From Propionivibrio sp. (GTDB lineage Bacteria; Pseudomonadota; Gammaproteobacteria; Burkholderiales; Rhodocyclaceae), in contig NZ_JAEUOI010000096.1 in the NCBI RefSeq assembly GCF_016790145.1, positions 1-57,270 of the forward strand: 57,270 nt of DNA. The letters are read 5' to 3'. Position numbers and translations under genes: made by a program. How positions within the stretch are numbered: position 1 is the stretch's first letter; each line of letters starts with the position of its first letter. The notes under the pieces were generated by a model. The model did no database searches and had not been told where the DNA came from. It saw only the letters and a program-made list of their open reading frames with translations. Of the stretch, positions 9,381 through 57,270 are shown one piece after another.

Positions 9381-10568
9381 ATGATGCGCCCTACGAAATG
9401 CCTTTTCGCCCTGGCTACCCTGCTCCTGCTGGGCACCTCCGTTCATGCGGCCGAAGCGAGCCGAACGTCAGTGAAAGTCGGCTTCCTGTCCACGCTCTCC
9501 GGCCCCGGCGCCGGTCTCGGTATCGATATTCGTGACGGCTTCAATCTGGCGGTCAAGCAACTCAACGGAAAACTGGGCGGGTTGCCCGCCGAAGTGATCG
9601 TCGTCGACGACCAGCAGAAACCCGAGGTCGCGCAGCAGGTCGCCGAGAAGTTCATGAAGAAGGACAAGGTTGATTTCATGACCGGCATCGTCTTCTCCAA
9701 CATCATGCTGGCCGTGGGTCAGCCGGTCTTCGACAACAAGACCTTCTATATCTCGGCCAATGCCGGTCCCTCGCAGTATGCCGGCGAGCAATGCAACCCG
9801 TACTTCTTCAACGTTGCCTGGCAGAACGACAACCTGCATGAGGCGGTTGGCAAGTACGTTATGGACAAGGGCTTCAAGAACGTTGTTCTGGTCGCGCCCA
9901 ATTATCCCGGCGGCAAGGACGCGATGGTCGGCTTCAAGCGCTTCTACAAGGGCAAGGTCAGCGAGGAGATTTACACCAAGCTGGGGCAACTCGATTACGC
10001 GGCCGAACTGGCGCAGATTCGCTCGCTCAAACCCGATGCCGTATTCTTCTTCCTGCCCGGCGGCATGGGCATCAACTTCGTCAAGCAGTTTGTCGCGGCC
10101 GGCCTGTCGTCCGATACTCAGCTCTTTGCACCCGGCTTCTCGGCTGATGAGGACGTGATCAAGGCCGTCGGGGCGCCGATGCTCGGCATGTTCAACTCCT
10201 CGCACTGGGCGCACGACATGGAGAACGCCGAGAACAAGCGCTTCGTCGCCGACTTCCAGAAGGAATACGGACGTTTGCCCTCACTCTACGCCTCGCAGGG
10301 CTACGACGCCGCGTTCCTGATCGACGGTGCCGTGCGCGATGTGAAAGGCAGGCTCGACGACAAGGAAGCGCTGAGAAAGGCGCTCGAAGCCAAGCACTTC
10401 AAGTCGGTGCGCGGCGACTTCAAGTTCAACCGCAACCACTACCCGGTACAGAACTACTATCTGCGCGTGATCGGTCGCGACGCCCAGGGCCGTATAACCA
10501 ACAAGACGATGGGAACGGTGTTTACGAATCATGCCGATGCCTATGTCGCGCAGTGCAAGATGAAATGA
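9381..10568 (+). CDS. Periplasmic substrate-binding protein of a Liv-type ABC importer
   Basis: The 395-residue product has a Sec signal peptide ending near SVHAAEA and the Leu/Ile/Val-binding fold. It starts with KVGFLSTLSGPGAGLGIDIRDG, followed by VIVVDDQQKP and SANAGPSQYAG, and it has hinge and C-terminal features typical of LivK-like receptors. Such proteins capture branched-chain amino acids, amides or aromatic carboxylates and hand them to the LivHM permease. The ligand cannot be told from sequence alone. GGAG lies just upstream of two consecutive ATGs, and the second (9384) has the better spacing. It leads the cluster livK-H-M-G-F. Confidence 0.92.
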   Translation: MMRPTKCLFALATLLLLGTSVHAAEASRTSVKVGFLSTLSGPGAGLGIDIRDGFNLAVKQLNGKLGGLPAEVIVVDDQQKPEVAQQVAEKFMKKDKVDFMTGIVFSNIMLAVGQPVFDNKTFYISANAGPSQYAGEQCNPYFFNVAWQNDNLHEAVGKYVMDKGFKNVVLVAPNYPGGKDAMVGFKRFYKGKVSEEIYTKLGQLDYAAELAQIRSLKPDAVFFFLPGGMGINFVKQFVAAGLSSDTQLFAPGFSADEDVIKAVGAPMLGMFNSSHWAHDMENAENKRFVADFQKEYGRLPSLYASQGYDAAFLIDGAVRDVKGRLDDKEALRKALEAKHFKSVRGDFKFNRNHYPVQNYYLRVIGRDAQGRITNKTMGTVFTNHADAYVAQCKMK

Positions 10569-10580
10569 TGACTTGAAACT

Positions 10581-10680
10581 CTTTCAACACAGAGTACGCA
10601 GAAGCGCAGAGTTCGCAAAGACAAGCGAAAGCAATTCTCTCTCTGCGCCCTCTGTATCTCAGCGATTTCTGCGTTGAAAG
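10581..10680. repeat. 100-bp imperfect inverted-repeat element between livK-like and livH-like genes
   Basis: The element opens with CTTTCAACACAGAGTACGCA and closes with the inverted GTTGAAAG. Internal CGCAGAG and CTCTGCG segments also pair, so the whole unit can form a long imperfect hairpin. It fills almost the entire gap between the binding-protein stop and the permease start. No open frame or transposase is present, so it is best read as a small non-autonomous palindromic element. Confidence 0.65.
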
Positions 10681-10699
10681 CGGTTTGCTATCTTGACCA

Positions 10700-11614
10700 A
10701 TGACCCAGCTCATCCTTGAACAGGCGCTCAACGGCCTGCAATTCGGTCTCATGCTGTTCCTGCTCGCCGCCGGGTTGACGCTGGTGTTCGGGATCATGGA
10801 CATGATCAATCTGGCGCATGGATCGCTGTACATGGTCGGAGCCTACCTGGCGGCAGCGGTAACGCAGGCCAGCGGGTCCTTCATGGTCGGAATCGGCACC
10901 GCCATGCTGGTTACGGCCCTGCTCGGCGCACTGCTTGAAGTGTCGCTGCTGCGCCGCCTGTATGCGCGTGATCACCTGGCGCAGGTACTGGCCACATTCG
11001 CCCTGATCCTGATCGCCAACGAAGTGGTGCGCATGATCTGGGGCGCGCAGCCGATGTTGCTCAATGCGCCGGAGGCGCTTTCCGGGCCGGTCAGCCTCGC
11101 TGGTTTCTTCTATCCTGCTTACCGTCTGCTGCTGATCGGCGTCGGCGTGCTGGTCGCCGGCCTGCTTTACCTTCTGGTGTCCCACACTCGGCTCGGGATG
11201 TGGGTGCGTGCCGGTGCATCGAATCGTGAAATGACCGAGGCGCTGGGAGTCAATGTCCGTCTGCTGTTTACCGCCGTCTTTGCTGCCGGTGCGGCGCTTT
11301 GCGCGCTGGCCGGCGCCATGCTCGGGCCGCTGCTGGCGGTTCAGGTCGGCATGGGAGAGAGCATTCTGATACTGGCCTTCGTGGTCATCGTCATCGGCGG
11401 CATCGGGTCGATTCGCGGTGCGCTGGTCGGCAGCCTCATGGTTGGTCTGGTCGATACGCTGGGCCGCGCTGCGCTACCCTCCTTGTTGCGCGAGTTTTTG
11501 TCGCCGGAGGTGGCGTCGAGTCTCGGCCCGGCGCTCGCCTCCATCCTCATCTACGTCCTCATGGCGGCCATTCTTTTCTGGCGCCCGGAAGGCCTCTTCC
11601 CGGCGCGGGGTTAA
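10700..11614 (+). CDS. livH: LivH-type ABC permease
   Basis: The 304-residue hydrophobic protein is the first of two membrane subunits of the Liv-type importer. Typical features are the N-terminal QALNGLQFGLMLFLLAAGLTLVFGIMDMINLAHG, given here as two motifs (GLQFGLMLFLLAAGLTL and MDMINLAHG), and the late VIVIGGIGSIRGALVGS loop that contacts the ATPases. About eight membrane helices are evident. I see no good ribosome binding site ahead of the ATG, and an inverted-repeat element occupies the upstream gap, so translation may depend on coupling or a weak site. Confidence 0.93.
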   Translation: MTQLILEQALNGLQFGLMLFLLAAGLTLVFGIMDMINLAHGSLYMVGAYLAAAVTQASGSFMVGIGTAMLVTALLGALLEVSLLRRLYARDHLAQVLATFALILIANEVVRMIWGAQPMLLNAPEALSGPVSLAGFFYPAYRLLLIGVGVLVAGLLYLLVSHTRLGMWVRAGASNREMTEALGVNVRLLFTAVFAAGAALCALAGAMLGPLLAVQVGMGESILILAFVVIVIGGIGSIRGALVGSLMVGLVDTLGRAALPSLLREFLSPEVASSLGPALASILIYVLMAAILFWRPEGLFPARG

Positions 11615-11648
11615 TGATCAGTTATGTTGAAAGGCATAGAAAAGCTTC

Positions 11649-11729
11649 ACCACCAAGTCACCAAGGACACAAAGTTTCACCAAGAAAAATCAAGCGGGTT
11701 TCCCTTGGTGAACCTGGTGTCATGGTGGT
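11649..11729. repeat. 81-bp imperfect inverted-repeat element between livH- and livM-like genes
   Basis: ACCACCAAGTCACCAAGG at the left end is matched by the inverted CCTGGTGTCATGGTGGT at the right end. Inner CACCAAG and CTTGGTG also pair. The sequence differs from the element upstream of livH but has the same layout and position within the operon. No coding capacity is visible. Confidence 0.65.
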
Positions 11730-11757
11730 TTGCATTTTCGTGCTAACTCAATTCTAA

Positions 11758-12711
11758 ATGGGACTATACGCCTCCTCACCGCGCCGCCGCATCGCTGCAG
11801 CAATGACGCTGGTGGCGCTGCTTGCGCTGCCCTGGCTGATGCAATCGCTCGACCAGGGCTTCTACGTCAGCCTGGCCAGCCGCGTGCTGATCTTTGCGCT
11901 GGCGGCAACCAGCCTCAACCTGGTAATCGGCTTCGGCGGCATGATCTCCTTCGGGCATGCCGCCTTTTTCGGCGCCGGTGCTTATACGGTGGCCATCCTC
12001 GCCGAGAGCGGAGTGGTTTCTGCCGCGCTGGCGTGGCCGCTGGCGCTCGCTGTGGCCGCATTGCTGGCGCTGTTGATCGGCGCCATCAGCCTGCGCACGC
12101 GCGGCGTCTATTTCATCATGATCACGCTGGCTTTTGCGCAGATGGTTTTTTATCTGGTCGTCTCGCTGAAGTCCTGGGGTGGCGATGACGGGCTGTTGTT
12201 GCTGCGTCGTTCGACTTTCGGTAGCCTCGATCTGAAGGACGACACGACGTTCTATTTCGTGGTGTTGGCGACGCTGGCGCTGGTGCTGCTGGCGCTCGAC
12301 CGTCTCGCCCATTCGCGCTTCGGGCGCGTCATCCAGAGTATCCGCGAGAACGAAACGCGAATGGAGGCGCTCGGCTATCCGGTGTTTTCCTACAAGCTGG
12401 TCTGTTTCGTGATCGGCGGCGCGCTGGCCGGTCTGGCCGGAGCGCTGCTGGTCAATCAGAGCGGGCTGGCCAGTCCGAACCTGTTGCACTGGATGCAGTC
12501 CGGAACGCTGATGGTGATGATTGTGATCGGCGGTGTCGGCAGCGTGTTTGGCGGTGTTGTGGGTGCCGTTCTGTTGCTGCTCTGCGAAGAATTTTTCGTC
12601 GAGATATCGCCCCATTGGCAGATCGGACTCGGCCTGCTGTTGCTGGCCGTTGTGTTGTGGGCGCCGCTAGGAATAGCCGGCCTGTTTGGCTGGGGTCGAA
12701 GCCGTGAGTGA
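11758..12711 (+). CDS. livM: LivM-type ABC permease
   Basis: The 317-residue membrane protein is the second permease subunit. The segment ALAATSLNLVIGFGGMISFGHAAFFGAGAY is characteristic of LivM (motifs LNLVIGFGGMISFGHAAFFG), and a late VIGGVGSVFGGVVGAV loop mirrors that of LivH. About ten hydrophobic helices are evident. Its end overlaps the start of the first ATPase gene by eight bases, a sign of translational coupling. The ATG has no clear ribosome binding site and follows an inverted-repeat element. Confidence 0.93.
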   Translation: MGLYASSPRRRIAAAMTLVALLALPWLMQSLDQGFYVSLASRVLIFALAATSLNLVIGFGGMISFGHAAFFGAGAYTVAILAESGVVSAALAWPLALAVAALLALLIGAISLRTRGVYFIMITLAFAQMVFYLVVSLKSWGGDDGLLLLRRSTFGSLDLKDDTTFYFVVLATLALVLLALDRLAHSRFGRVIQSIRENETRMEALGYPVFSYKLVCFVIGGALAGLAGALLVNQSGLASPNLLHWMQSGTLMVMIVIGGVGSVFGGVVGAVLLLLCEEFFVEISPHWQIGLGLLLLAVVLWAPLGIAGLFGWGRSRE

Positions 12712-13467
12712 GCGCCGTACGATCCTGCTCGAAGTCCGTGATGTGAGCAAGCACTTCGGCGGTATCTATGCGCTCAATGGGGCTTCGCTGGCGCTTGAGA
12801 GCGGCGAGGTGCATGCGCTGATCGGCCCCAACGGCGCCGGAAAGACGACGCTGATTCACGTTCTGTCAGGCGCCCTGACGGCGGATGCCGGGCAAGTGAT
12901 CTTCAACGGCAACGATCTGGCGTGGCGCGCGATGCACGAGCGCGTCGCACTCGGTCTTGCGCGTTCGTATCAGATCACCAATCTGTTCTCGCGTCTTACG
13001 GTGCTCGACAACGTGACGATGGCGGTGCAATCGCGGGTGCGCGACTGGGGTTCGAGCTTCAGCTTCTGGAAACCCTTTTCGCTCGATTCGGCGATTGTCG
13101 ACGAAGCCCAAGATTTGCTTGATCAGGTCTCGCTCACCGGTCTGGCCGGGCGTCGGGCCTGCCAGCTCTCGCATGGCGAGCAGCGCTGTCTGGAGGTGGC
13201 GCTGGTGCTGGCCACGAAACCAAAGCTGCTGCTGCTCGACGAACCGATGGCCGGAATGGGGCCTGAGGAGTCGGTGCGCATGGTCGAACTGATCGAAAAT
13301 CTGGCGCGCCGGGTGACGATGCTGCTCGTCGAACACGATATGGATGCCGTTTTCCGCCTGGCCGACCGTATTTCGGTGCTGGTTGGCGGTCGCGTCATTG
13401 CCAGCGGCGCGCCAGCGGCTATTCGTGCCGACCATGAGGTGAGACGCGCCTATCTGGGAGACGCGCA

Positions 13468-13471
<4 letters not shown>
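12704..13471 (+). CDS. livG: LivG-type ABC transporter ATPase
   Basis: The 255-residue cytoplasmic ATPase has Walker A GPNGAGKTT (residues 41-49), signature LSHGEQRCLEVALVL (LSHGE instead of the usual LSxGQ), Walker B LLLLDEPMAGM and a switch histidine in LLVEHDMD. It powers the LivHM channel together with LivF. I start it at the GTG (12704, MSERRT) because the longer frame begins with a TTG inside livM. It overlaps livM by eight bases and livF by four. Confidence 0.93.
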
Positions 13472-14178
<707 letters not shown>

Positions 14179-42841: not shown

Positions 42842-44121
42842 GCATTGCCTTGCCGGAGTCCTTGCGCGTCCTGCTGACGCGCAAGATGTTGATCTGCGTG
42901 TTTACCGGATTCAGCTCGGGGCTGCCGCTTTACCTGCTGCTCAACCTGCTTCCCGCCTGGTTGCGCAGCGAGGGGGTCAACCTCAAAACGATTGGCTTCT
43001 TTGCGCTGATCCAGTTTCCCTACACCTGGAAATTTCTCTGGTCGCCCTTTCTCGATCGTTATGCCCTGCCCATACTCGGTCGCCGGCGTAGCTGGTCGCT
43101 GCTCATGCAGATTGGCTTGCTGCTGTGCATTGGACTGCTCGGCGGGCTTTCGCCGGGCACCGACATCGTCCCGGTGCTGTGGCTCGCGGCGCTGCTCGCA
43201 CTTTTCTCGGCCACCCAGGACATCGCGCTCGACGCCTACCGGCGCGAGTTGCTGTCCGATGTCGAACTGGGTCTGGGCAACGCCGTGCATGTCAATGCCT
43301 ATCGGGTAGCCGGTCTGGTGCCGGGTTCGCTGTCGCTGATCCTTGCCGACCTGCTACCGTGGTCGCAGGTGTTCTGGATCACCGCCGCCTTCATGCTGCC
43401 GGGCATGCTGATGATCCTGCGGGTCAGCGAGCCGGTGGCGGCGCATGCCGCGCCGAAGACCCTGCGCCAGGCGGTGGTCGAGCCTTTCAACGAATTCATG
43501 GGGCGCAACGGTGTGCGTGGCGCGCTGCTGGTGCTGGCCTTCATTTTCCTCTACAAGCTGGGCGACTCGCTGTGCACGGCGCTGGCCACCCCTTTTTATC
43601 TCGACATGGGTTTCACGAAAACCGACATCGGCCTGATCGCCAAACACGCCGGTCTGTGGCCGGCAGTCATCGGTGGTCTGCTCGGCGGTCTGTGGATGGT
43701 GCGTCTGGGGATCAATCGCGCACTGTGGTTGTTCGGCGTCGTGCAACTCGTTTCCATTCTCGGCTTCGCCTGGCTGGCCTGGCTCGGGCCGCAGACGGCG
43801 ATCGGCATCGACCAGCGCCTGGCGCTTGCTGCCGTCATCGGCGTCGAGGCGCTCGGCGTCGGCCTGGGCACTGCCGCTTTTGTCGCCTTCATTGCCCGCT
43901 CGACGCACCCGGCTTACACGGCAACGCAATTTGCCCTGTTCACCAGCCTGGCCGCCGTTCCGCGCACCTTCATCAATGCCTCGGCCGGCTGGTTGGTGGA
44001 AGGCCTGGGCTGGTTCAATTTCTTCCTGCTGTGCACCGCGCTGGCGGTTCCCGGAATGCTCCTGCTTTCGCGCGTGGCACCATGGAATGCAGCGCCGGTG
44101 AAAGGGGCGCAAGGTGCGTGA
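42838..44121 (+). CDS. ampG: AmpG-like muropeptide/MFS transporter
   Basis: The 427-residue protein has about 12 to 14 hydrophobic segments and the AmpG features GFSSGLPLYLLLNLLPAWLR, PYTWKFLWSPFLDRY and SATQDIALDAYRREL. AmpG imports anhydro-muropeptides for peptidoglycan recycling. It overlaps metW by four bases and the DNA glycosylase gene by eight, so the four genes are probably one operon. Confidence 0.92.
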   Translation: MSIALPESLRVLLTRKMLICVFTGFSSGLPLYLLLNLLPAWLRSEGVNLKTIGFFALIQFPYTWKFLWSPFLDRYALPILGRRRSWSLLMQIGLLLCIGLLGGLSPGTDIVPVLWLAALLALFSATQDIALDAYRRELLSDVELGLGNAVHVNAYRVAGLVPGSLSLILADLLPWSQVFWITAAFMLPGMLMILRVSEPVAAHAAPKTLRQAVVEPFNEFMGRNGVRGALLVLAFIFLYKLGDSLCTALATPFYLDMGFTKTDIGLIAKHAGLWPAVIGGLLGGLWMVRLGINRALWLFGVVQLVSILGFAWLAWLGPQTAIGIDQRLALAAVIGVEALGVGLGTAAFVAFIARSTHPAYTATQFALFTSLAAVPRTFINASAGWLVEGLGWFNFFLLCTALAVPGMLLLSRVAPWNAAPVKGAQGA

Positions 44122-45070: not shown

Positions 45071-45886
45071 ATGTTACCCAAGCCTGTCATGAAATCACTT
45101 CGGTTTCCGGTAGCCCATCTTGCCTTGGCGTTTGCGCTTGTAATCCCGGGTCTCTCGGTCGCCAGCCCATCTGCCAGCGTGGATGGTTCAATGGAAACCA
45201 GCGAAGGGTTCAGATACGACGACGGCGCAACCTCCCCCACGTTGGCTGTAAGTATTGCCCATAGTTATAGCGACGGCGTGCTTTCTTTTATGGCGTCGGC
45301 GGGTGGCGGGAGCATTTCCGGCGGAGCCAATCCTTTCATCACCATATCGACCTACGCCTCTAACAATGGTGCGTTTCGAACCGCGTCCGGGGCGCACGCT
45401 GGTACATGGAGTTCTTTCTATGTTGGAACAAAACCGGGGTTTTCTCCCCCGGCGGAGAAAATGTACGTTCCCGTCAAGGTTCATTACACCAGTACTCTGA
45501 CGGAGCAGTTCGGGAAAGTTCCTGCCAGTTGGAACACCAACGAACCGGACAAAATGGCGTTTTACCTTGACAGTGTGAACTGGCGTCCTTATAACGAAGA
45601 CGGCTATCTATCTGGTAATTTCTATTACGGCGATGTACGCAGCGTTGGCATCTACACGTCCTTGTCGTCGATCACCCGGAACGATATCGGGCCGGGCGCA
45701 TGGGCGAGAGCGGATCTGTACGCCTCGATAACACCGTATGTCGATCCAGCATGGAATGCCGAACACGGCAACGGCTATAAGGTGTTCTACGTGGGACAGG
45801 TCCCCGAACCCGAAACCTACGGCATGATGATGGCGGGTCTGGGGTTGATCGGATTTCTTGTCCGGCGCAGAAAACTGAACGCCTGA
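45071..45886 (+). CDS. PEP-CTERM exported protein
   Basis: The 271-residue protein has a Sec signal peptide (ALVIPGLSVASP) and ends in a PEP-CTERM sorting tail: VPEPETYGMMMAGLGLIGFL followed by RRRK. This marks secretion and processing by an exosortase, linked in these bacteria to extracellular polysaccharide. The mature part is beta-rich and aromatic, with no recognised catalytic motif. GGGAGA precedes an ATG. A strong terminator follows. No exosortase is in the window. Confidence 0.93.
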   Translation: MLPKPVMKSLRFPVAHLALAFALVIPGLSVASPSASVDGSMETSEGFRYDDGATSPTLAVSIAHSYSDGVLSFMASAGGGSISGGANPFITISTYASNNGAFRTASGAHAGTWSSFYVGTKPGFSPPAEKMYVPVKVHYTSTLTEQFGKVPASWNTNEPDKMAFYLDSVNWRPYNEDGYLSGNFYYGDVRSVGIYTSLSSITRNDIGPGAWARADLYASITPYVDPAWNAEHGNGYKVFYVGQVPEPETYGMMMAGLGLIGFLVRRRKLNA

Positions 45887-49499: not shown

Positions 49500-49801
49500 G
49501 AGGGATCAAGCGTGCGGGTTCAAGTGCATCGGAGAATAGTGCAGCCATGGGCTGTTCAGCCCAGGTGCAACAGGGCGACGCAGGTTAACACAAAGTGCAC
49601 TCTTGATACAGACAATCAGTCTGACGAGATGGGCGTATGGGTATCCGGCCTGGTGACTTCACCCGCTCTTGTCATGAAATACGGGAAGCAGAGCAATCGT
49701 TTGCATATACTAGGTTTTCATGCGGGTCGTTGTTATCATTCCCCATGTCATTACCCGTAAGCGATATGTTTGCAGTGCTCAAGGCGGGTTGGGAGGATTA
49801 T
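49500..49801. other. 302-base divergent intergenic region
   Basis: It separates eamA and the binding-protein gene. A perfect palindrome TGGGCTGTTCAGCCCA lies at 49548-49563. TGTTATCAT at 49731-49739 fits an extended -10 (TG-N-TATCAT) for the downstream gene, but the -35 is weak (TAGGTT at 49711). The open frames here are not convincing. Confidence 0.5.
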
Positions 49802-50905
49802 ATGAAAGTGTATAGTCGTTTTTTTGGCCTGGCTCTGCTGCTGGCACTGGCCGCTTGTTCTCCGCCGGAGCCGTTGAAACTCGGTTTTCTCGGCGGGCTC
49901 TCCGGCCGTGTCGCCGACCTCGGCGAGGCCGGGCGCAACGGCACCTTGCTGGCTGTCGAGGAGGCCAATACGGCTGGCGGCGTCAACAGGCGCAAGATCG
50001 AATTGCTGATTTACGACGACGAGCAGCAGGCTGCCGCCGCTGTCAAGGCGACCGAGGCGCTGATCGCAGCACGCGTCGAAGCCATCATTGGGCCAATGAC
50101 GAGTTCGATGGGCGATGCGATTTTACCTGTGGCTACCCGCGCCGGCATGGTCGTGGTCAGCCCGACCGTCACTGCGTCCTCGCTGTCCGGCAAGGATGAC
50201 ATTCTGTTCAAGGTGGCACCGTCGGTGGAGACCAGTACCCGGCTCAGCGCAGCATTCGAGTACGCCCGCGGGGTTCGTCGCGCAGCCATCGTCAATGACC
50301 TCAGCAATCGTGCCTATACCGCAGACTGGGCGGGGCACTTCCGCAGGGATTTCACCGCGCTCGGCGGAGAGGTCGTCGCCGAGGCCAGCTTCACGTCGGG
50401 TGACGACGCCAGCTACACCGAGGCGATCACGAAAATCGCCAAAGCGAAGCCGGATCTGCTGCACCTGGTCGCCAACGCCGTCGATACGGTGCGCCTGACG
50501 CAGCTTGCCCGCAATCTCGGTTTGACGCTGCCGGTAACGACGTCGACCTGGGCCGCGACCGAGCACCTGATCCAACTGGGCGGACGCACGGTCGAAGGCG
50601 TCACGCTGACGCAGTTCTTCAATCGCGACGATGCCTCGCCGCGCTATCGTGCATTTTCCACGGCCTACACGGCGCGCTTCAAGCAGGAGCCGGGCTTTGC
50701 CAGCGTCGCCGCCTACGACGCGACGCGGTCGATTCTCACGGCGCTGGCCAAGGCGGGCAAGGGCCAGCCGCTGAAGGAAGCCTTGCTTACCGCCGGCCCC
50801 TACGAGGGACTACAGGACCGCTGGAACTTCGACCGCTACGGCGACGCCCAGCGCCAAACCCACATCTCGGTCGTGCGCAACGGTCGTTTAGTCCTTGTCG
50901 AGTAG
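49802..50905 (+). CDS. Lipoprotein Leu/Ile/Val-type periplasmic binding protein
   Basis: The 367-residue product has a lipobox LAAC near residue 19 and the periplasmic-binding fold, with KLGFLGGLSGRVADLGEAGRNG at the start and VEAIIGPMTSSMGDAI and VVSPTVTASSL following. The family is that of LivK receptors, but no permease or ATPase is adjacent. A sensor kinase gene begins nine bases downstream, so it probably serves as the ligand receptor of that kinase. GGGAGGA gives a strong ribosome binding site at the ATG. Confidence 0.88.
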   Translation: MKVYSRFFGLALLLALAACSPPEPLKLGFLGGLSGRVADLGEAGRNGTLLAVEEANTAGGVNRRKIELLIYDDEQQAAAAVKATEALIAARVEAIIGPMTSSMGDAILPVATRAGMVVVSPTVTASSLSGKDDILFKVAPSVETSTRLSAAFEYARGVRRAAIVNDLSNRAYTADWAGHFRRDFTALGGEVVAEASFTSGDDASYTEAITKIAKAKPDLLHLVANAVDTVRLTQLARNLGLTLPVTTSTWAATEHLIQLGGRTVEGVTLTQFFNRDDASPRYRAFSTAYTARFKQEPGFASVAAYDATRSILTALAKAGKGQPLKEALLTAGPYEGLQDRWNFDRYGDAQRQTHISVVRNGRLVLVE

Positions 50906-50914
50906 ACTCATCGC

Positions 50915-53656
50915 ATGCGCGAACTGCGGCTGCGAACATCGTTGATCCTGCTGCTGGTCACGGCAGTCACGCTGACCTTTGCGCTGGTCGGCAGTATGAT
51001 TCTGGCATACCGCCTGCCGCAGATCGAGGCAAATAACCGTGCCGACCTGCAGGAACGGGCGGTGAATGCGTCACGCCTGCTCGACCACTACATGGCCGGC
51101 ATCGAGGCGCAGATCAGGACGCAGGCTCGACTGGTGGCCAATCGATCGCCCGCCGAACTGCAGGCCTTCCTTGAAGCCGTAGTCGGCGATGGTGAAACAA
51201 TGCAGGCCGCGTATGTGGTGGCCGCCGATGGCAGTGTGGAGGCTCTCGGCCTGCCAGGCACCCGCCGGCAGGCCGAGGCGGAACTGCGTGGCGCGGACTT
51301 TTCAAACATCCCGCTGTTCCAGTCGGCGCGCGCGGCAGCGACAGCAAAGGGAGATGTCGCACCGGCAATCTGGAGCGACAATTTTCTGTCGGCGATCTCC
51401 GGCAAACTCGCTGTCGGCGTTGCCGTGCCGACTGGCGACAAGGTTGTCATTGGCGAGGTCGCGCTGGAACGCGTACTGTCAATGTTCAGCAGTCTTGATC
51501 CGGGTTCCGAGTCCTTCGTGCTCGTTATCGATCGTCAGGGTCAGTGGCTGGCGGCCTCGCGTGACAATCCGACGGGGCGCTTTATCAACTATGCCGCAAT
51601 GCCCACCTTCCAGGCGATTCTTGCCGGCCGAGCACTGCCCGAGTACGAGATTTCTCAAGGTGAACGTTTCCTGGTAGGGGGCGTGCTGGCCAGTAATCTG
51701 AATTGGGTGATCACTACGGCGGCGCCCTCCGGCACGGGGAGCTCCAGGTATCTGTCGACGATTTTTCTGGTCGTCGGTGGGTTTGCCGGATCGCTGCTGC
51801 TGAGCTTGATACTTGCACCCTTGTGGGCCGCACGCATGGTGCGCCCGCTCAAAGCGCTGATCGAGAGAACTCACCGCGTCATCGAGGGCGACTACGGTTC
51901 ACCGTGGCCGCGCCGCGGGGCCATTAGCGAACTGAATCAGTTGACGATGGATCTTGGGCGCATGGTCGAGGTAATCCAGACCCGCGAAGCCGGGATGGCA
52001 CGCAGTGAAGAACGGCTGCGCGCCACGCTGGAGAACACGCCGTCGATCGCGGTTCAGTGGTTTGACGCCAGCGGACGCATACTGTACTGGAACAAGGCCT
52101 CGGAGATCATTTACGGATTCACTGCGGCAGAGGCCGTTGGCGCGGTCATTGGCGAGAAGCTGCTGATGTATCCGGACCGGCAGCAGACTGACGATTTCAT
52201 CGGCGTACTCGGTGATATTGAGCGTAGCGGGAAGCCCTTCGGCCCCGCCGAGTTTACACTGCGCAAGAAGGACGGGAGCGAGATCGTGGTGCTGGCGACG
52301 ACCTTCGCCATTCCCGGCGAGGGCGACAGCAAGATATTCGTCTGCATGGATGTCGATGTCACCGAACGCAAGCGTGCCGAGGCCAATCTGCTGGACAGCG
52401 AAAAGAAACTCGAGGCAATTTTCAACGCCTCGCCGGCGGCCATGTCGGTGACCGACGTCAAAAATAATTTCAGAGTGATCACGGTCAATGCCGCCTGGGA
52501 GAGACAGTTCCAGCGTCGGCGACAGGATGTCGCCGGTCTCAACGGACTCGAAATGGGTTTGTGGGCTGATCCTGCTGACCGCGTCTTCTTGCTCGCCGCA
52601 TTGAGAAGCGGCAGTACTCCCGATGTGATGGAGGCCGAACTGCTTGCCGGAGACGGGCGGCGGATGCTGTGCAGCATTTCCGCCCAGATCACCGAGATTC
52701 GCGGCAATCGTTTGTTGCTGATGATGACGGTCGACATCACCGAACGGCGACGCATCGAAAACGAGATTCGCGAACTCAATACCGATCTGGAGCAGCGCGT
52801 GGCCCGGCGTACCGGGCAGTTGTCCGAAGCCAACATCGAGCTCGCGGCGAGCGTGGAAAACCTCAGGACGGCACAGAAACAGCTTGTACAGTCGGAAAAA
52901 CTCGCGGCCTTGGGCAACCTGGTGGCCGGCATCGCGCACGAACTCAACACGCCGATTGGCAACGCCGTGACGGTTGCCAGTACGCTACTCGATCACCACC
53001 GGCAGATCAGTGGCCAACTGCAATCCGGGCTCACCCGATCTTCCCTGAATGCCTTCATTGACACCCTGGGCGAAGCGGCAAGCATACTCGAGCGGAACTT
53101 GCATCGTGCCGCAGAATTGATCGGCAATTTCAGGCAGATCGCCGTCGATCAGGCGAGTTATCAGCGGCGTACCTTCGATCTGCGTGAAGCGGTCGAGGAG
53201 GTGCGACTGGTCATGACTCCGGCGATCCGCAAGTCACCGGTCGAGCTGAAAAATGAGGTTCCCGAAGGAATTCTCATGGACGGATACCCTGGGCCGCTGA
53301 CGCAGGTGCTGATGATTCTGGTGAATAACTCGCTGATTCATGCGTTCGCAGGAAGAGATCGCGGAAGCATACGGATAGAAGCCAGCGCACCGCTATCGGG
53401 CAATGTCCGTTTACGCTTCAGTGACGACGGCACAGGCATTCCAGCAGAGAATCTGGAGCGGATATTCGAACCATTTTTCACTACCCGTCTCGGCCAGGGA
53501 GGCTCCGGACTTGGCCTGCATATCCTGTTCAACCTGGTCACCGGCTTGCTCGGTGGCCGGGTCGCAGTCAGCAGCGATCACGGCAACGGAACCGAGTTTG
53601 TTATTGACCTGCCACAGAGCGCTCCCGTAATCGCAGAGACTGTCTTGCAAGACTAG
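50915..53656 (+). CDS. Membrane sensor histidine kinase with two PAS domains
   Basis: The 913-residue kinase has a transmembrane helix at about 8-32, a periplasmic sensor region of about 240 residues (Cache-like, with AAYVVAADGSVE and FVLVIDRQGQWLAAS), a second helix near 279-303, and HAMP. Then follow two PAS domains (about 366-610), a coiled coil and a histidine kinase core. The phospho-acceptor is His675 in HELNTPIGN. The ATPase domain shows NNSLIHAF, DDGTGIP, FEPFFTT and GSGLGLHI. It starts nine bases after the binding-protein gene, and the response regulator follows after 46 bases. Confidence 0.93.
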   Translation: MRELRLRTSLILLLVTAVTLTFALVGSMILAYRLPQIEANNRADLQERAVNASRLLDHYMAGIEAQIRTQARLVANRSPAELQAFLEAVVGDGETMQAAYVVAADGSVEALGLPGTRRQAEAELRGADFSNIPLFQSARAAATAKGDVAPAIWSDNFLSAISGKLAVGVAVPTGDKVVIGEVALERVLSMFSSLDPGSESFVLVIDRQGQWLAASRDNPTGRFINYAAMPTFQAILAGRALPEYEISQGERFLVGGVLASNLNWVITTAAPSGTGSSRYLSTIFLVVGGFAGSLLLSLILAPLWAARMVRPLKALIERTHRVIEGDYGSPWPRRGAISELNQLTMDLGRMVEVIQTREAGMARSEERLRATLENTPSIAVQWFDASGRILYWNKASEIIYGFTAAEAVGAVIGEKLLMYPDRQQTDDFIGVLGDIERSGKPFGPAEFTLRKKDGSEIVVLATTFAIPGEGDSKIFVCMDVDVTERKRAEANLLDSEKKLEAIFNASPAAMSVTDVKNNFRVITVNAAWERQFQRRRQDVAGLNGLEMGLWADPADRVFLLAALRSGSTPDVMEAELLAGDGRRMLCSISAQITEIRGNRLLLMMTVDITERRRIENEIRELNTDLEQRVARRTGQLSEANIELAASVENLRTAQKQLVQSEKLAALGNLVAGIAHELNTPIGNAVTVASTLLDHHRQISGQLQSGLTRSSLNAFIDTLGEAASILERNLHRAAELIGNFRQIAVDQASYQRRTFDLREAVEEVRLVMTPAIRKSPVELKNEVPEGILMDGYPGPLTQVLMILVNNSLIHAFAGRDRGSIRIEASAPLSGNVRLRFSDDGTGIPAENLERIFEPFFTTRLGQGGSGLGLHILFNLVTGLLGGRVAVSSDHGNGTEFVIDLPQSAPVIAETVLQD

Positions 53657-53702
53657 CGTGGTAAGCTGCTAATTAAATTAATTTGTCAAAAATTATTCGA
53701 TC

Positions 53703-55895
53703 ATGATTCCAGCAAGCCCTGATGATGTGTTGGTTTTCATTGACGAACCCGAGCCGCTGCCGACGGATGGCAATCCGATCTGGCGGGTGCTCATTGTCGA
53801 TGACGAACCTGATGTCCATCAGGCGACATTGCTGGCCTTGAAGGATGTTGCCATCGAGGGGCGGCAACTGGAGTTTGTGCACGCCTTTTCGGCGGCGGAA
53901 GCACGGGACTGCCTTCGCCAGCACAGGGATCTGTCCGTTGTCTTGCTCGACGTGGTGATGGAATCCAACGATGCCGGTCTGCAATTGATCGGCTACGTTC
54001 GCAATGAACTTGCCAACAGGGCATTGCGCTTCATTCTGCGTACCGGGCAACCGGGTTATGCCCCCGAGATTGATACCATTCGTTTGTACGACATCAACGA
54101 CTACAAGACCAAATCGGAGCTGACACGTGTACGGCTGTTTACCAGCCTGACCGTTGCCATTCGCTCGTACTGGCAGATTCATCAACTTGAGGCCAATCGG
54201 CGCGGTCTTGAGCTGATTGTGGCGGCCAGCACCGAGCTGTGCAAGCCCAGAGGCCTGCGTCGTTTTGCCGAAGGAGTTGTCACCCAGTTGTGTGCCTTGC
54301 TGAGGGTCAGCGAGGAGGGCGTTGTTTGTGCTGCAGCCGAAGTTTCCGGTGTATCGCCCTACGTTCTGGCCGCCGCCGGGCGTTACTCGGACTGGATAGG
54401 CCAGCCCTTGACTTCCATTCCCGACGAACGGGTACGTCAGGATTTGACAAGGACGCTGGCCGAGCGCAACCATGTTCTTGGTGAAACAACCTGCCTTTTT
54501 TTCAGCGTTCCCGGAGATCATTCACTGGCGGCGTTTGTTGGTGTCAATCATCACATCAATGAACTGGATCGAAATCTGCTTGAGGTATTCTGCAGCAACA
54601 TTTCTGTCGCTTTCGAAAACACTCAGCTCTACCAGCGGATCAGCACTCTGGCCTACGAAGACCTGCTGTTGAACCTGCCTAATCGCAACAATTTTCTGGC
54701 GCGCATCGATCAGCGCCCGGACCATTTGGATACACTGGCGCTGGTCGATATTGACGGCTTTTCCGACATCAACAGCATTCTTGACCAGGATTTTGGGGAT
54801 GCCGTTTTACGTGTGGTAGCAAGGCGTTTGCGTCATGCCTTTACTTCGCAAGTGGTCGTTGCCCGTGTCGGGAGCGATGTTTTCGGCCTACTGGGGTCAC
54901 AAAGCGAAGTCAATCCAGAACGCATTACCGATGTTTTTTCCACGCCATTCGATGTCGGCGATGAGAACCTTCGTGTATCAGTGACCAGCGGTCTGGTCAG
55001 GCTTGACGATTCCTCGCTCAAAGGGGTGGAACTGCTCAGGAATGGCAGTGTGGCATTGAAAAAGGCCAAGACCTTCAGTCGCGGCAAGGCGCTATACTTC
55101 GAGGTCGCCCATGCCACCGCAGCCCGCGAGCGCATGCTGATGTTGAGCCGACTGCGCCTGGCCTTTTCCGCAGAACAATTATTCCTCGTTTATCAGCCTT
55201 TCATCGAACTGGCCAGTGGCCGCATTGTCGGCGCCGAGGCGCTGCTACGCTGGCGTACGGAGCAGGGGGAATTTATCGCCCCGGACAGCTTCATTCCTGT
55301 CGCCGAACAGTCTGGCCTGATGGTGCCCATTGGCGACTGGCTTACCCTCAGTGCATTGCAGTTTCTCAAACGTCTGGTCGAACTCGGCCATCACGACTTC
55401 AGGATGGCCATCAACGTCTCGCACGTCCAGTTTCGTGAACCTGATTTTGTCGAGAAACTGCTCAATGCGATAGATGAGCACCGTGTGAATCCTGCCAATC
55501 TCGAGATTGAACTGACCGAGTCAGTGGCCATCGATGATATTGAATTGATCGGGCAGAAACTTGCAGCCGTTCGTGCCGCAGGCGTAGCCATCGCCATCGA
55601 CGATTTCGGCACGGGCTATTCATCGCTGAACATTCTGCGCAAGATGAATGTAGACCGCTTGAAGATTGACCGCGCGTTCGTCAGTGGCGAAGACAGCCTA
55701 CATGAGGATTACAGCATCGCCGGAATGGTGCTGCAACTGGCGGGGCAGCTTGGGCTCGAATCAATCGCCGAGGGTATCGAAACGCAGGCTCAGCGTGACA
55801 CGCTGCTGAGCATGGGTTGTCGCGATGGACAGGGGTATTTTTTCTCCAGGCCTCTGACGAGCGAGCAGTTCGCTGCGTTTCTACAGGACAGATAG
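53703..55895 (+). CDS. Response regulator with DUF3369, degenerate GGDEF and EAL domains
   Basis: The 730-residue protein has a receiver domain with phospho-acceptor Asp83 (VVLLDVVME), then DUF3369 (about 155-320, often linked to sensing), a GGDEF domain and an EAL domain. The GGDEF signature is replaced by GSDVF near residue 390, so diguanylate cyclase activity is unlikely. The EAL motif EALLRW (near 510) and DDFGTGYSSL are intact, so it should degrade c-di-GMP when phosphorylated. It is the evident partner of the upstream kinase. The ATG has no clear ribosome binding site. Confidence 0.93.
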   Translation: MIPASPDDVLVFIDEPEPLPTDGNPIWRVLIVDDEPDVHQATLLALKDVAIEGRQLEFVHAFSAAEARDCLRQHRDLSVVLLDVVMESNDAGLQLIGYVRNELANRALRFILRTGQPGYAPEIDTIRLYDINDYKTKSELTRVRLFTSLTVAIRSYWQIHQLEANRRGLELIVAASTELCKPRGLRRFAEGVVTQLCALLRVSEEGVVCAAAEVSGVSPYVLAAAGRYSDWIGQPLTSIPDERVRQDLTRTLAERNHVLGETTCLFFSVPGDHSLAAFVGVNHHINELDRNLLEVFCSNISVAFENTQLYQRISTLAYEDLLLNLPNRNNFLARIDQRPDHLDTLALVDIDGFSDINSILDQDFGDAVLRVVARRLRHAFTSQVVVARVGSDVFGLLGSQSEVNPERITDVFSTPFDVGDENLRVSVTSGLVRLDDSSLKGVELLRNGSVALKKAKTFSRGKALYFEVAHATAARERMLMLSRLRLAFSAEQLFLVYQPFIELASGRIVGAEALLRWRTEQGEFIAPDSFIPVAEQSGLMVPIGDWLTLSALQFLKRLVELGHHDFRMAINVSHVQFREPDFVEKLLNAIDEHRVNPANLEIELTESVAIDDIELIGQKLAAVRAAGVAIAIDDFGTGYSSLNILRKMNVDRLKIDRAFVSGEDSLHEDYSIAGMVLQLAGQLGLESIAEGIETQAQRDTLLSMGCRDGQGYFFSRPLTSEQFAAFLQDR

Positions 55896-56133: not shown

Positions 56134-57270
56134 ATGCTTGATCGCATGAAACTAAGAACAAAAATTATCCTTCTGGTCGTCGCCGCCCTGCTCGGCATGG
56201 TGGTTATCGCCAGCTTGTCTGCCTTTGCCACCAAACGCGATCTGACCGAGGGGCGCAAGGTGCTGATCAAGTCAATCATCGAGTCGGCGCACAACACGGC
56301 GGCTTTCTATCATGCGCAGGAGGTGGCCGGAGCGCTGACCCGCGAGCAGGCGCAGAAGGCCGTCATCGACACCCTGCTGGCGGCACGCTACGGTGGAGCC
56401 GACGGCAAGACAGATTATGTTTATGCGCTTACGACGGAAGGGGTCTTCGTCGCACACGTCAAAACCGAATTGATCGGCCAGAACGTGCTGGAGAAGTTTG
56501 TGGACGGGCAAGGACGTTTTGCGCTGAAAGACATTATCGCGGGGGCTAAGTCCGCTCCGGGCGGTGCTTTTATCGATACCGCCTTCCCGCGTCCGGGTGA
56601 GAAGGTCGCTGTCGAAAAGCTGCAGTTTGCCAAAACCTTCGACCCCTGGAGCTGGGTCATTGGTACCGGTGTATACATGGATGACATTGACACCGAGTTC
56701 AATCACCGACTGGCCAAGGATCTGACAGTGACCGGCGTGCTGCTGGTGGCGATCGCCTTGCTTGGCTTTACCATTGCCCGCGGCGTGCTGCGCCAGGTTG
56801 GCGGCGAACCGGCCGAAGCCATCGAACTGATGTCACGCGCGGCCAGCGGCGATCTGACGGTGGAAATGCGCTCGGCTCCCAAAGGCAGCATGCTGGCTTC
56901 GTTGGGAGATATGGTCGGCGCGATTCGCACCATGGTGTCGGAAATCAGCCAAAGCTCGACCCGGCTTACGAAGGGCGCTGAAAGCATCAGCACCGCTTCA
57001 CGCGAGGTGGCCATTGCCTCCGAAAGGCAATCCGATGCCACACAGACGATGGCCGCAGCGATCGAAGAAATGACGGTCAGCATCAATCACATTTCCGACA
57101 GCGCGAAAGACACCCAGGAGAACTCACTCACCTCGGTCAGCCTGTCCGAGGATGGCTATGGACGGGTTGAGACGGCCACGCATGAAATCAAGGAGATTGC
57201 AACGCGCGTCAGCGACGCCTCCGGGCGCATTCGCAAGCTGGAGGAACGCGCCAACCAGATTTCCTCGATC
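56134..57270 (+). CDS. Methyl-accepting chemotaxis protein (partial, runs past the window end)
   Basis: 379 residues are visible. There is a membrane helix at about 10-30, a periplasmic sensor region of single-Cache type (DYVYALTTEGVFVAHV and FDPWSWVIGTGVYMDDID), a second helix near 190-210, a HAMP domain (GEPAEAIELMSRAASGDL) and the beginning of the cytoplasmic signalling rod. The gene lacks its highly conserved tip (E-x-x-GRGF-type hairpin) because the window ends first. Three ATGs occur in a row; the third (56134) is best placed after AAGGAG. It may act with the upstream kinase/EAL module, or be independent. Confidence 0.92.
   Translation, partial: MLDRMKLRTKIILLVVAALLGMVVIASLSAFATKRDLTEGRKVLIKSIIESAHNTAAFYHAQEVAGALTREQAQKAVIDTLLAARYGGADGKTDYVYALTTEGVFVAHVKTELIGQNVLEKFVDGQGRFALKDIIAGAKSAPGGAFIDTAFPRPGEKVAVEKLQFAKTFDPWSWVIGTGVYMDDIDTEFNHRLAKDLTVTGVLLVAIALLGFTIARGVLRQVGGEPAEAIELMSRAASGDLTVEMRSAPKGSMLASLGDMVGAIRTMVSEISQSSTRLTKGAESISTASREVAIASERQSDATQTMAAAIEEMTVSINHISDSAKDTQENSLTSVSLSEDGYGRVETATHEIKEIATRVSDASGRIRKLEERANQISSI

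Follow-up and report, generated by a model that had tools for sequence, protein, structure and literature searches.

What does a LivK-type binding protein do when the gene beside it encodes a sensor kinase, and the gene after that a regulator of cyclic di-GMP (c-di-GMP)? This question is raised by a 57,270-nucleotide contig of Propionivibrio sp. (NZ_JAEUOI010000096.1, assembly GCF_016790145.1; the whole stretch is hereafter the window), in which positions 49802-55895 hold, on one strand, a LivK-type lipoprotein, a dCache-PAS histidine kinase and a REC-DUF3369-GSDVF-EAL regulator, with intergenic gaps of 9 and 46 bases and no permease or ATPase gene adjoining the trio. The initial annotation had described this arrangement from the letters alone, and Pfam searches and our own reading of the sequence bear it out. 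We found that the receptor and the periplasmic domain of the kinase recur together as a linked pair. We consider it fairly likely that the trio is explained by a chain of indirect sensing like that of LuxP-LuxQ, ending here in c-di-GMP breakdown; the module probably makes the cell destroy c-di-GMP when an outside chemical appears.

The receptor gene (49802..50905, plus strand, as are all features of the trio) is preceded by a ribosome-binding sequence, GGAGG (49792..49796), and encodes an orphan lipoprotein of 367 amino acids with the lipobox LAAC (L16-A17-A18-C19, Cys19; 49847..49858) and a Peripla_BP_6 fold (Pfam, 9e-53, scored on a longer frame from 49637). Its AlphaFold model has a mean predicted local distance difference test score (pLDDT) of 94.3, and its nearest solved folds are LivK/LivJ (Foldseek template-modelling score of 0.87 to 3td9); aromatic-acid-binding proteins are also within the model's 50 best structural matches. 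The kinase (50915..53656, 913 amino acids) is built as dCache-PAS-PAS-HisKA-HATPase. Its periplasmic domain (51017..51700), the likely docking partner of the receptor, matches dCache_1 weakly (1.4e-5, 25.2 bits vs. a Pfam cut-off of 45), and AlphaFold gives residues 1-296 a confident Cache-type fold (mean pLDDT 92.5) whose first Foldseek matches include Cache domains, KinD, CtaA, rpHK1S-Z16, and DctB or PctB. Beyond it lie two PAS domains, a HisKA variant reading AHELNTPIGN (HisKA slightly under the Pfam cut-off) and the ATPase, with the histidine and ATPase boxes present by sight; this HELNTPIGN-type core (52805..53653) is the part associated, by our own profile and by neighbour counts, with c-di-GMP phosphodiesterase regulators. 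The regulator (53703..55895, 730 amino acids) matches DUF3369 (5.8e-48), EAL (2e-65) and GGDEF (1.9e-14, with GSDVF replacing the motif) in Pfam, and its REC domain scores 21.8 bits, below the cut-off of 30.2. The receiver Asp83 and the EAL motifs EALLRW, NVS, ELTES, DDFGTGYSS, EGIE and QG are present by sight and read as intact.

To place the trio among its relatives, we sampled 395 genomes of the family and called receptor members in them at E 1e-80, scoring at most four candidates per genome both here and in a phylum-wide draw; copy numbers are lower bounds, domain calls outside Pfam and NCBIfam rest on our own small profiles, and family members share descent, so that the counts are not independent observations. 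The receptor is present in 91 of the 395 genomes, as 120 genes, and in 86 of these a dCache sensor is the next gene downstream on the same strand, at a median gap of 0 bases (71 of the 86 measurable). The same pairing holds in a second class, that of Desulfuromonas, in which the receptor occurs in 58 of 244 genomes: among the best 30 of 70 matches, taken as loci, 28 have a dCache gene directly downstream, and the other two comprise one with an intervening receiver gene and one cut at a contig end. The receptor thus lies beside its sensor gene as a LuxP-LuxQ-like pairing would require, and the periplasmic part of the sensor has the double-PAS (dCache) form by AlphaFold and Foldseek, Pfam placing it below cut-off. 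A conserved receptor-kinase unit, and a linkage on which the earlier proposal was to stand or fall, were accordingly found, far beyond chance neighbourhood; the receptor-sensor linkage is not chance. A named search with two short patterns drawn from six receptors gave 63 rows, after two sequences of 27-28% identity (L124 and L125) had been excluded before counting; it shares L063, L064, L088 and L105 with the family sample and provides no independent count. One apparent receptor-kinase fusion, a 1102-aa open frame at L053, proved to be two genes in different frames.

The genome of the window itself holds a second trio, on contig C207, with a receptor 41% and a regulator 45% identical to those of the window, and a kinase 44% identical over residues 482-909 and 32% over residues 2-359. 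Its gene order is regulator-receptor-kinase, unlike that of the window, and chance is hard to invoke because two diverged copies hold the same parts in a different order. The receptor-family profile separates these two members (514 and 507 bits) from the next Peripla_BP_6 protein of the genome (143 bits), and as a control, four of the seven other Peripla_BP_6 genes adjoin LivH/LivM-type permeases. Two further loci of this genome carry related parts: a third kinase whose core is of the same type as that of the window kinase (contig C92, L226, 5525-8683), with no receptor-family gene seen in its 12-kb stretch, and a REC-DUF3369 protein too short for GGDEF-EAL (contig C108, L059, 8220-9359).

Which part of the kinase travels with the receptor? 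L064, a close relative, has a receptor 72% identical to that of the window and a kinase whose residues 1-514, spanning the dCache, the membrane segment and the first PAS, are 66% identical; from there the kinase runs into a different, hybrid-kinase core. Across the family, the 86 dCache sensors comprise 47 kinases of the window's core type, 11 hybrid kinases, one other kinase and 23 GGDEF-EAL proteins, the output of the remaining four not being seen. Because L064 keeps the dCache before another core, and because elsewhere the dCache fronts hybrid kinases or GGDEF-EAL, the periplasmic domain is the fixed partner. Receptor and dCache are the fixed part, and the intracellular attachment of the dCache has been exchanged repeatedly; on a quick, unsupported tree of 160 distinct receptors, 134 of them bearing one of four labels, the output label changes at least 12 times. 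Distances tell the same way: in the 53 rows whose kinase core is of the window's type, r is 0.90 for receptor against dCache, 0.70 for receptor against core and 0.72 for dCache against core, with a partial receptor-dCache correlation of 0.79 given the core; over 116 rows of all types, receptor and dCache correlate at r 0.86, the highest of 500 permutations being 0.10.

The output side is tied to the type of kinase core. This type was sharply separated in a first set (339-439 bits vs. 148 or less), with scores of 320 (L127) and 262 (L215) appearing in the larger set. A DUF3369-EAL regulator lies near 29 of the 47 family kinases of this type and near none of the 39 other dCache sensors, and the trio recurs with the same type of regulator (30 of the 120 family rows, window included), in support of the initial proposal of one module. 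Of these 30 rows, 28 have the regulator ahead of the receptor and transcribed in the same direction (two being the tandem receptors of L044, and the regulator of L051 reading as two overlapping frames); it is convergent in L057, and downstream on the same strand in the window alone. A REC-HD-GYP gene adjoins four of the kinases of this type that have no EAL regulator (L041, L047, L157 and L161, all of one genus, g8), and likewise a Pelomonas kinase of the named set (L121), L041 and L121 being called by Pfam and the others by our own profile. As HD-GYP proteins make up the second class of c-di-GMP phosphodiesterases, this kinase type seems to be connected to c-di-GMP breakdown by at least two routes, EAL in some loci and HD-GYP in others. 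The DUF3369-EAL regulator was not seen in 20 longer stretches of Desulfuromonadia.

We reasoned from these parts to the following chain. The lipoprotein, a binding protein of two lobes without a nearby transporter of its own, would bind a small molecule in the periplasm and dock on the dCache domain of the kinase; docking would alter kinase activity across the membrane; the kinase, to judge by gene order, by motifs intact by sight and by the tie between kinase type and regulator type, would phosphorylate Asp83 of the regulator; and the EAL domain would then hydrolyse c-di-GMP, so that the cell would move away from the attached state.

The literature as covered here (titles, abstract beginnings and passages, most subscription papers lying outside the scope) holds no description of this receptor family or trio, and the comparisons that follow share that coverage; DUF3369 is mentioned in two of the papers covered. 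In LuxP-LuxQ the binding protein is of another family and the phosphorelay leads to transcription. The pair resembles that of the window in that the kinase reads a periplasmic binding protein through a double-PAS domain that has no ligand of its own (PMC8534201, PMC8694187), and differs from it in that the window joins a LivK-type lipoprotein to a c-di-GMP phosphodiesterase regulator. In NspS-MbaA, which senses polyamines in Vibrio cholerae, a periplasmic binding protein controls c-di-GMP signalling, and the system is comparable to the dCache-GGDEF-EAL variants of the present family. It uses another binding-protein family and a one-protein receptor, with no kinase or response regulator. KinD of Bacillus subtilis needs the lipoprotein Med, and its pathway controls sporulation. 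KinD is also the best PDB sequence match of the dCache profile (4JGO/4JGP, E 3.4e-13) and resembles the window kinase in that match; it differs in that its domain, by the title of the structure, was crystallised with pyruvate bound. In Pseudomonas aeruginosa, the AgtS and AruS kinases have a binding-protein gene near the sensor kinase gene, and they differ from the window in having binding proteins for gamma-aminobutyrate and 5-aminovalerate, with no mention of a c-di-GMP regulator in the passages seen of that paper (PMC11113362). Loaded binding proteins that activate sensors are described as widespread, such kinases often being encoded beside the binding protein (PMC9602780, PMC11113362), and a 2022 paper puts the characterised sensor kinases that a binding protein activates at about ten (PMC9602780).

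Several observations weigh against this chain. The lipobox pattern is present in 115 of the 120 family members, and none of these 115 has Asp directly behind the lipid cysteine; the rule established in E. coli, if it applies to these lipoproteins, would place them in the outer membrane, away from the kinase. Not every receptor has the expected partner: 24 of 120 pair with an sCache3 sensor (20 divergent, 4 downstream), four with another sensor (one row being the first of two tandem receptors), and six have no adjoining sensor. The phylum-wide draw found a member in 5 of 398 genomes, the window's own included, and of five further genes in that sample one has a dCache kinase and four have no recognised sensor. 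On the output side, 18 of the 47 kinases of the window's core type lack an EAL regulator, and the L064 stretch has none either. The correlation of distances is by itself no proof of contact, as neighbouring DNA is co-inherited and can inflate it, but dCache and core, which share one gene, fit no better than receptor and core. Transporters do stand nearby at L051 and L221 (one genus), L127 (another family) and L257, each with its own binding protein. Finally, receptor position 249 is E or D in 93 of 116 rows but T in the window, L063 and L064; the amino group of the ligand may not be read in this subclade, and with Thr at this position the ligand class of the window receptor is uncertain.

The receptors paired with sCache3 form a subgroup, mostly divergent, that includes L037, L039, L042, L131-L135, L137, L138 and others. 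At L154 (9084-10616), the gene after a receptor that lacks a recognised sensor encodes a Tle1-like phospholipase domain of the type VI secretion system (Pfam 1.6e-77).

The four transporter cases bear on an alternative in which the lipoprotein feeds an unlinked ATP-binding cassette (ABC) transporter, the kinase uses its dCache to sense a ligand of its own, and the genes are merely co-regulated, scavenging and sensing one compound. LivK-type proteins normally feed LivHMGF; the genome of the window has liv operons, one of them complete and standing apart in the window itself (9381-14178: binding protein, two BPD_transp_2 permeases and two ATPases by Pfam); and many of the solved dCaches among the nearest folds are ligand complexes. 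Set against this, LivH/LivM above 40 bits (own profiles) was found in 0 of 120 family stretches, 12 of which have under 3 kb on one side, and in 0 of 63 named rows, and the concern that relatives of the receptor might lie mostly beside permease genes was not borne out. The 40-bit cut-off did miss weaker permeases, at 31 and 34 bits in L051 and L221; such weaker matches occur at L045, L051 and L221 in the family and at L127, and those of L051, L221 and L127 belong to Bmp-type transporters. L257 (4077-13105) has a full liv operon ahead of the receptor gene and that of a dCache hybrid kinase; it is the one liv operon among the 20 longer Desulfuromonadia stretches and the only liv-linked case seen. 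In the four transporter cases the separate binding protein, Bmp or Peripla_BP_6, stands against the receptor's serving the transporter, as does the pairing of the receptor with a dCache whatever the output. We regard service to an unlinked transporter as unlikely.

What, then, might the receptor of the indirect-sensing chain bind? The pocket stretches T100-S101 and S120-P121-T122, which presumably hold a carboxylate, are kept in 105-115 of 116 rows and align with solved amino-acid receptors; because of this conservation, a carboxylate ligand is likely for most members. A lead of another kind comes from neighbourhoods in which a Bmp-type (PnrA-like) ABC transporter and an amidohydrolase lie beside the module: L127 (7103-17562), with receptor and kinase, and L051 (31-5953) and L221 (11563-16501), which belong to the window's family and hold the full trio. 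The receptors of L051/L221 and L127 are 33-36% identical across two unrelated lineages. Bmp-type transporters are of the nucleoside type, and a nucleobase-like ligand is possible for these three members; no such transporter or amidohydrolase lies beside the window's module. A check with five L127 proteins placed amidohydrolases near the module at L051, L221, L218 and L188. The neighbourhood is a lead and no conserved part. A recurrent metabolic neighbour was also sought by clustering 1180 non-signalling neighbours, and the 45 largest clusters, viewed unannotated, looked like genus synteny; the Bmp-type genes and amidohydrolases picked up with the L127 proteins had escaped that list.

These neighbourhoods also enter a second alternative, in which each protein binds a ligand and the pair acts as a two-input gate; the receptor might take an acid, for instance, and the dCache a nucleobase-like compound. 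The model for it is Dret_0059 of Desulfohalobium retbaense (PDB 5ERE), which, like the window, has a LivK-type domain and then a dCache domain, in the order of the two genes, and which differs in being one chain. The receptor profile matches residues 32-319 of 5ERE, and the Cache model of the kinase matches its second part (Foldseek 1.5e-9); because 5ERE holds both domains in one chain and in the same order, direct contact between receptor and dCache is plausible, a point that favours the indirect-sensing chain as well. A table lists cytosine in the dCache of Dret_0059 (PMC8694187), and receptor-kinase pairs lie beside the Bmp-type transporter and amidohydrolase in both unrelated lineages. The profile match of the dCache to 5ERE residues 331-464 is weak, however (E 0.032); the pocket Arg of KinD (position of the R131A mutant) aligns to Ile132 in the window dCache and is Arg in 33 of 116 family dCaches; and no conserved ligand motif was identified in the alignment of those 116 rows. 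A two-input gate appears rather improbable.

That the regulator is a c-di-GMP receptor or protein switch, so that the pathway does not end in breakdown, is very unlikely: its GGDEF is degenerate (GSDVF), Pfam gives DUF3369 no known function and certain EAL proteins lack enzymatic activity, but its EAL motifs are present, its nearest NCBIfam models by score are phosphodiesterases (below cut-offs), and some kinases of the same type adjoin the other phosphodiesterase type, REC-HD-GYP.

Two neighbours that the initial annotation had drawn into the picture fall outside the unit. The chemoreceptor at 56134 had been offered as its completion; of the 120 family stretches, leaving aside the cut-off gene of the window, only 11 contain a gene for a methyl-accepting chemotaxis protein (MCP), and of 186 loci one has a relative of the window's MCP. 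Positions differ as well: at L150 and L151, of one genus, the gene is on the same strand within 100 bases upstream; at L201 it is divergent, 280 bases away; and at L039 it lies 1 kb downstream. The suggestion of an exported ligand, guessed from an EamA neighbour, fares no better, an EamA gene being present in 249 of 395 family genomes and beside the receptor only in the window and in genome G109 among the places listed. As ligand clues, the EamA exporter, Lrp and LeuA neighbours were set aside; of 186 loci, 4, 1 and 1, respectively, have a relative of these genes close to the receptor, three of the four EamA loci being of one genus. Elsewhere in the window, a PEP-CTERM protein (45071-45886) adjoins a uracil-DNA-glycosylase-like gene at 44114.

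Beyond the window, indirect sensing by the trio leads to a wider proposal, to which we give slightly less than even credence: a clade of LivK-type lipoproteins in Betaproteobacteria, a few Gammaproteobacteria and Desulfobacterota may have left transport, the receptor and dCache forming an input cassette that has been rejoined to different kinases, hybrid kinases and c-di-GMP enzymes, with the dCaches serving as docking platforms and not as ligand pockets. If this is true, docking-platform dCaches would explain dCache sensors for which a ligand has not been found. Gene linkage ties a single type of sensor domain to one receptor family whose members number well over a hundred, and many orphan dCache sensors, some of them setting c-di-GMP, thereby gain a concrete candidate for how they are switched.

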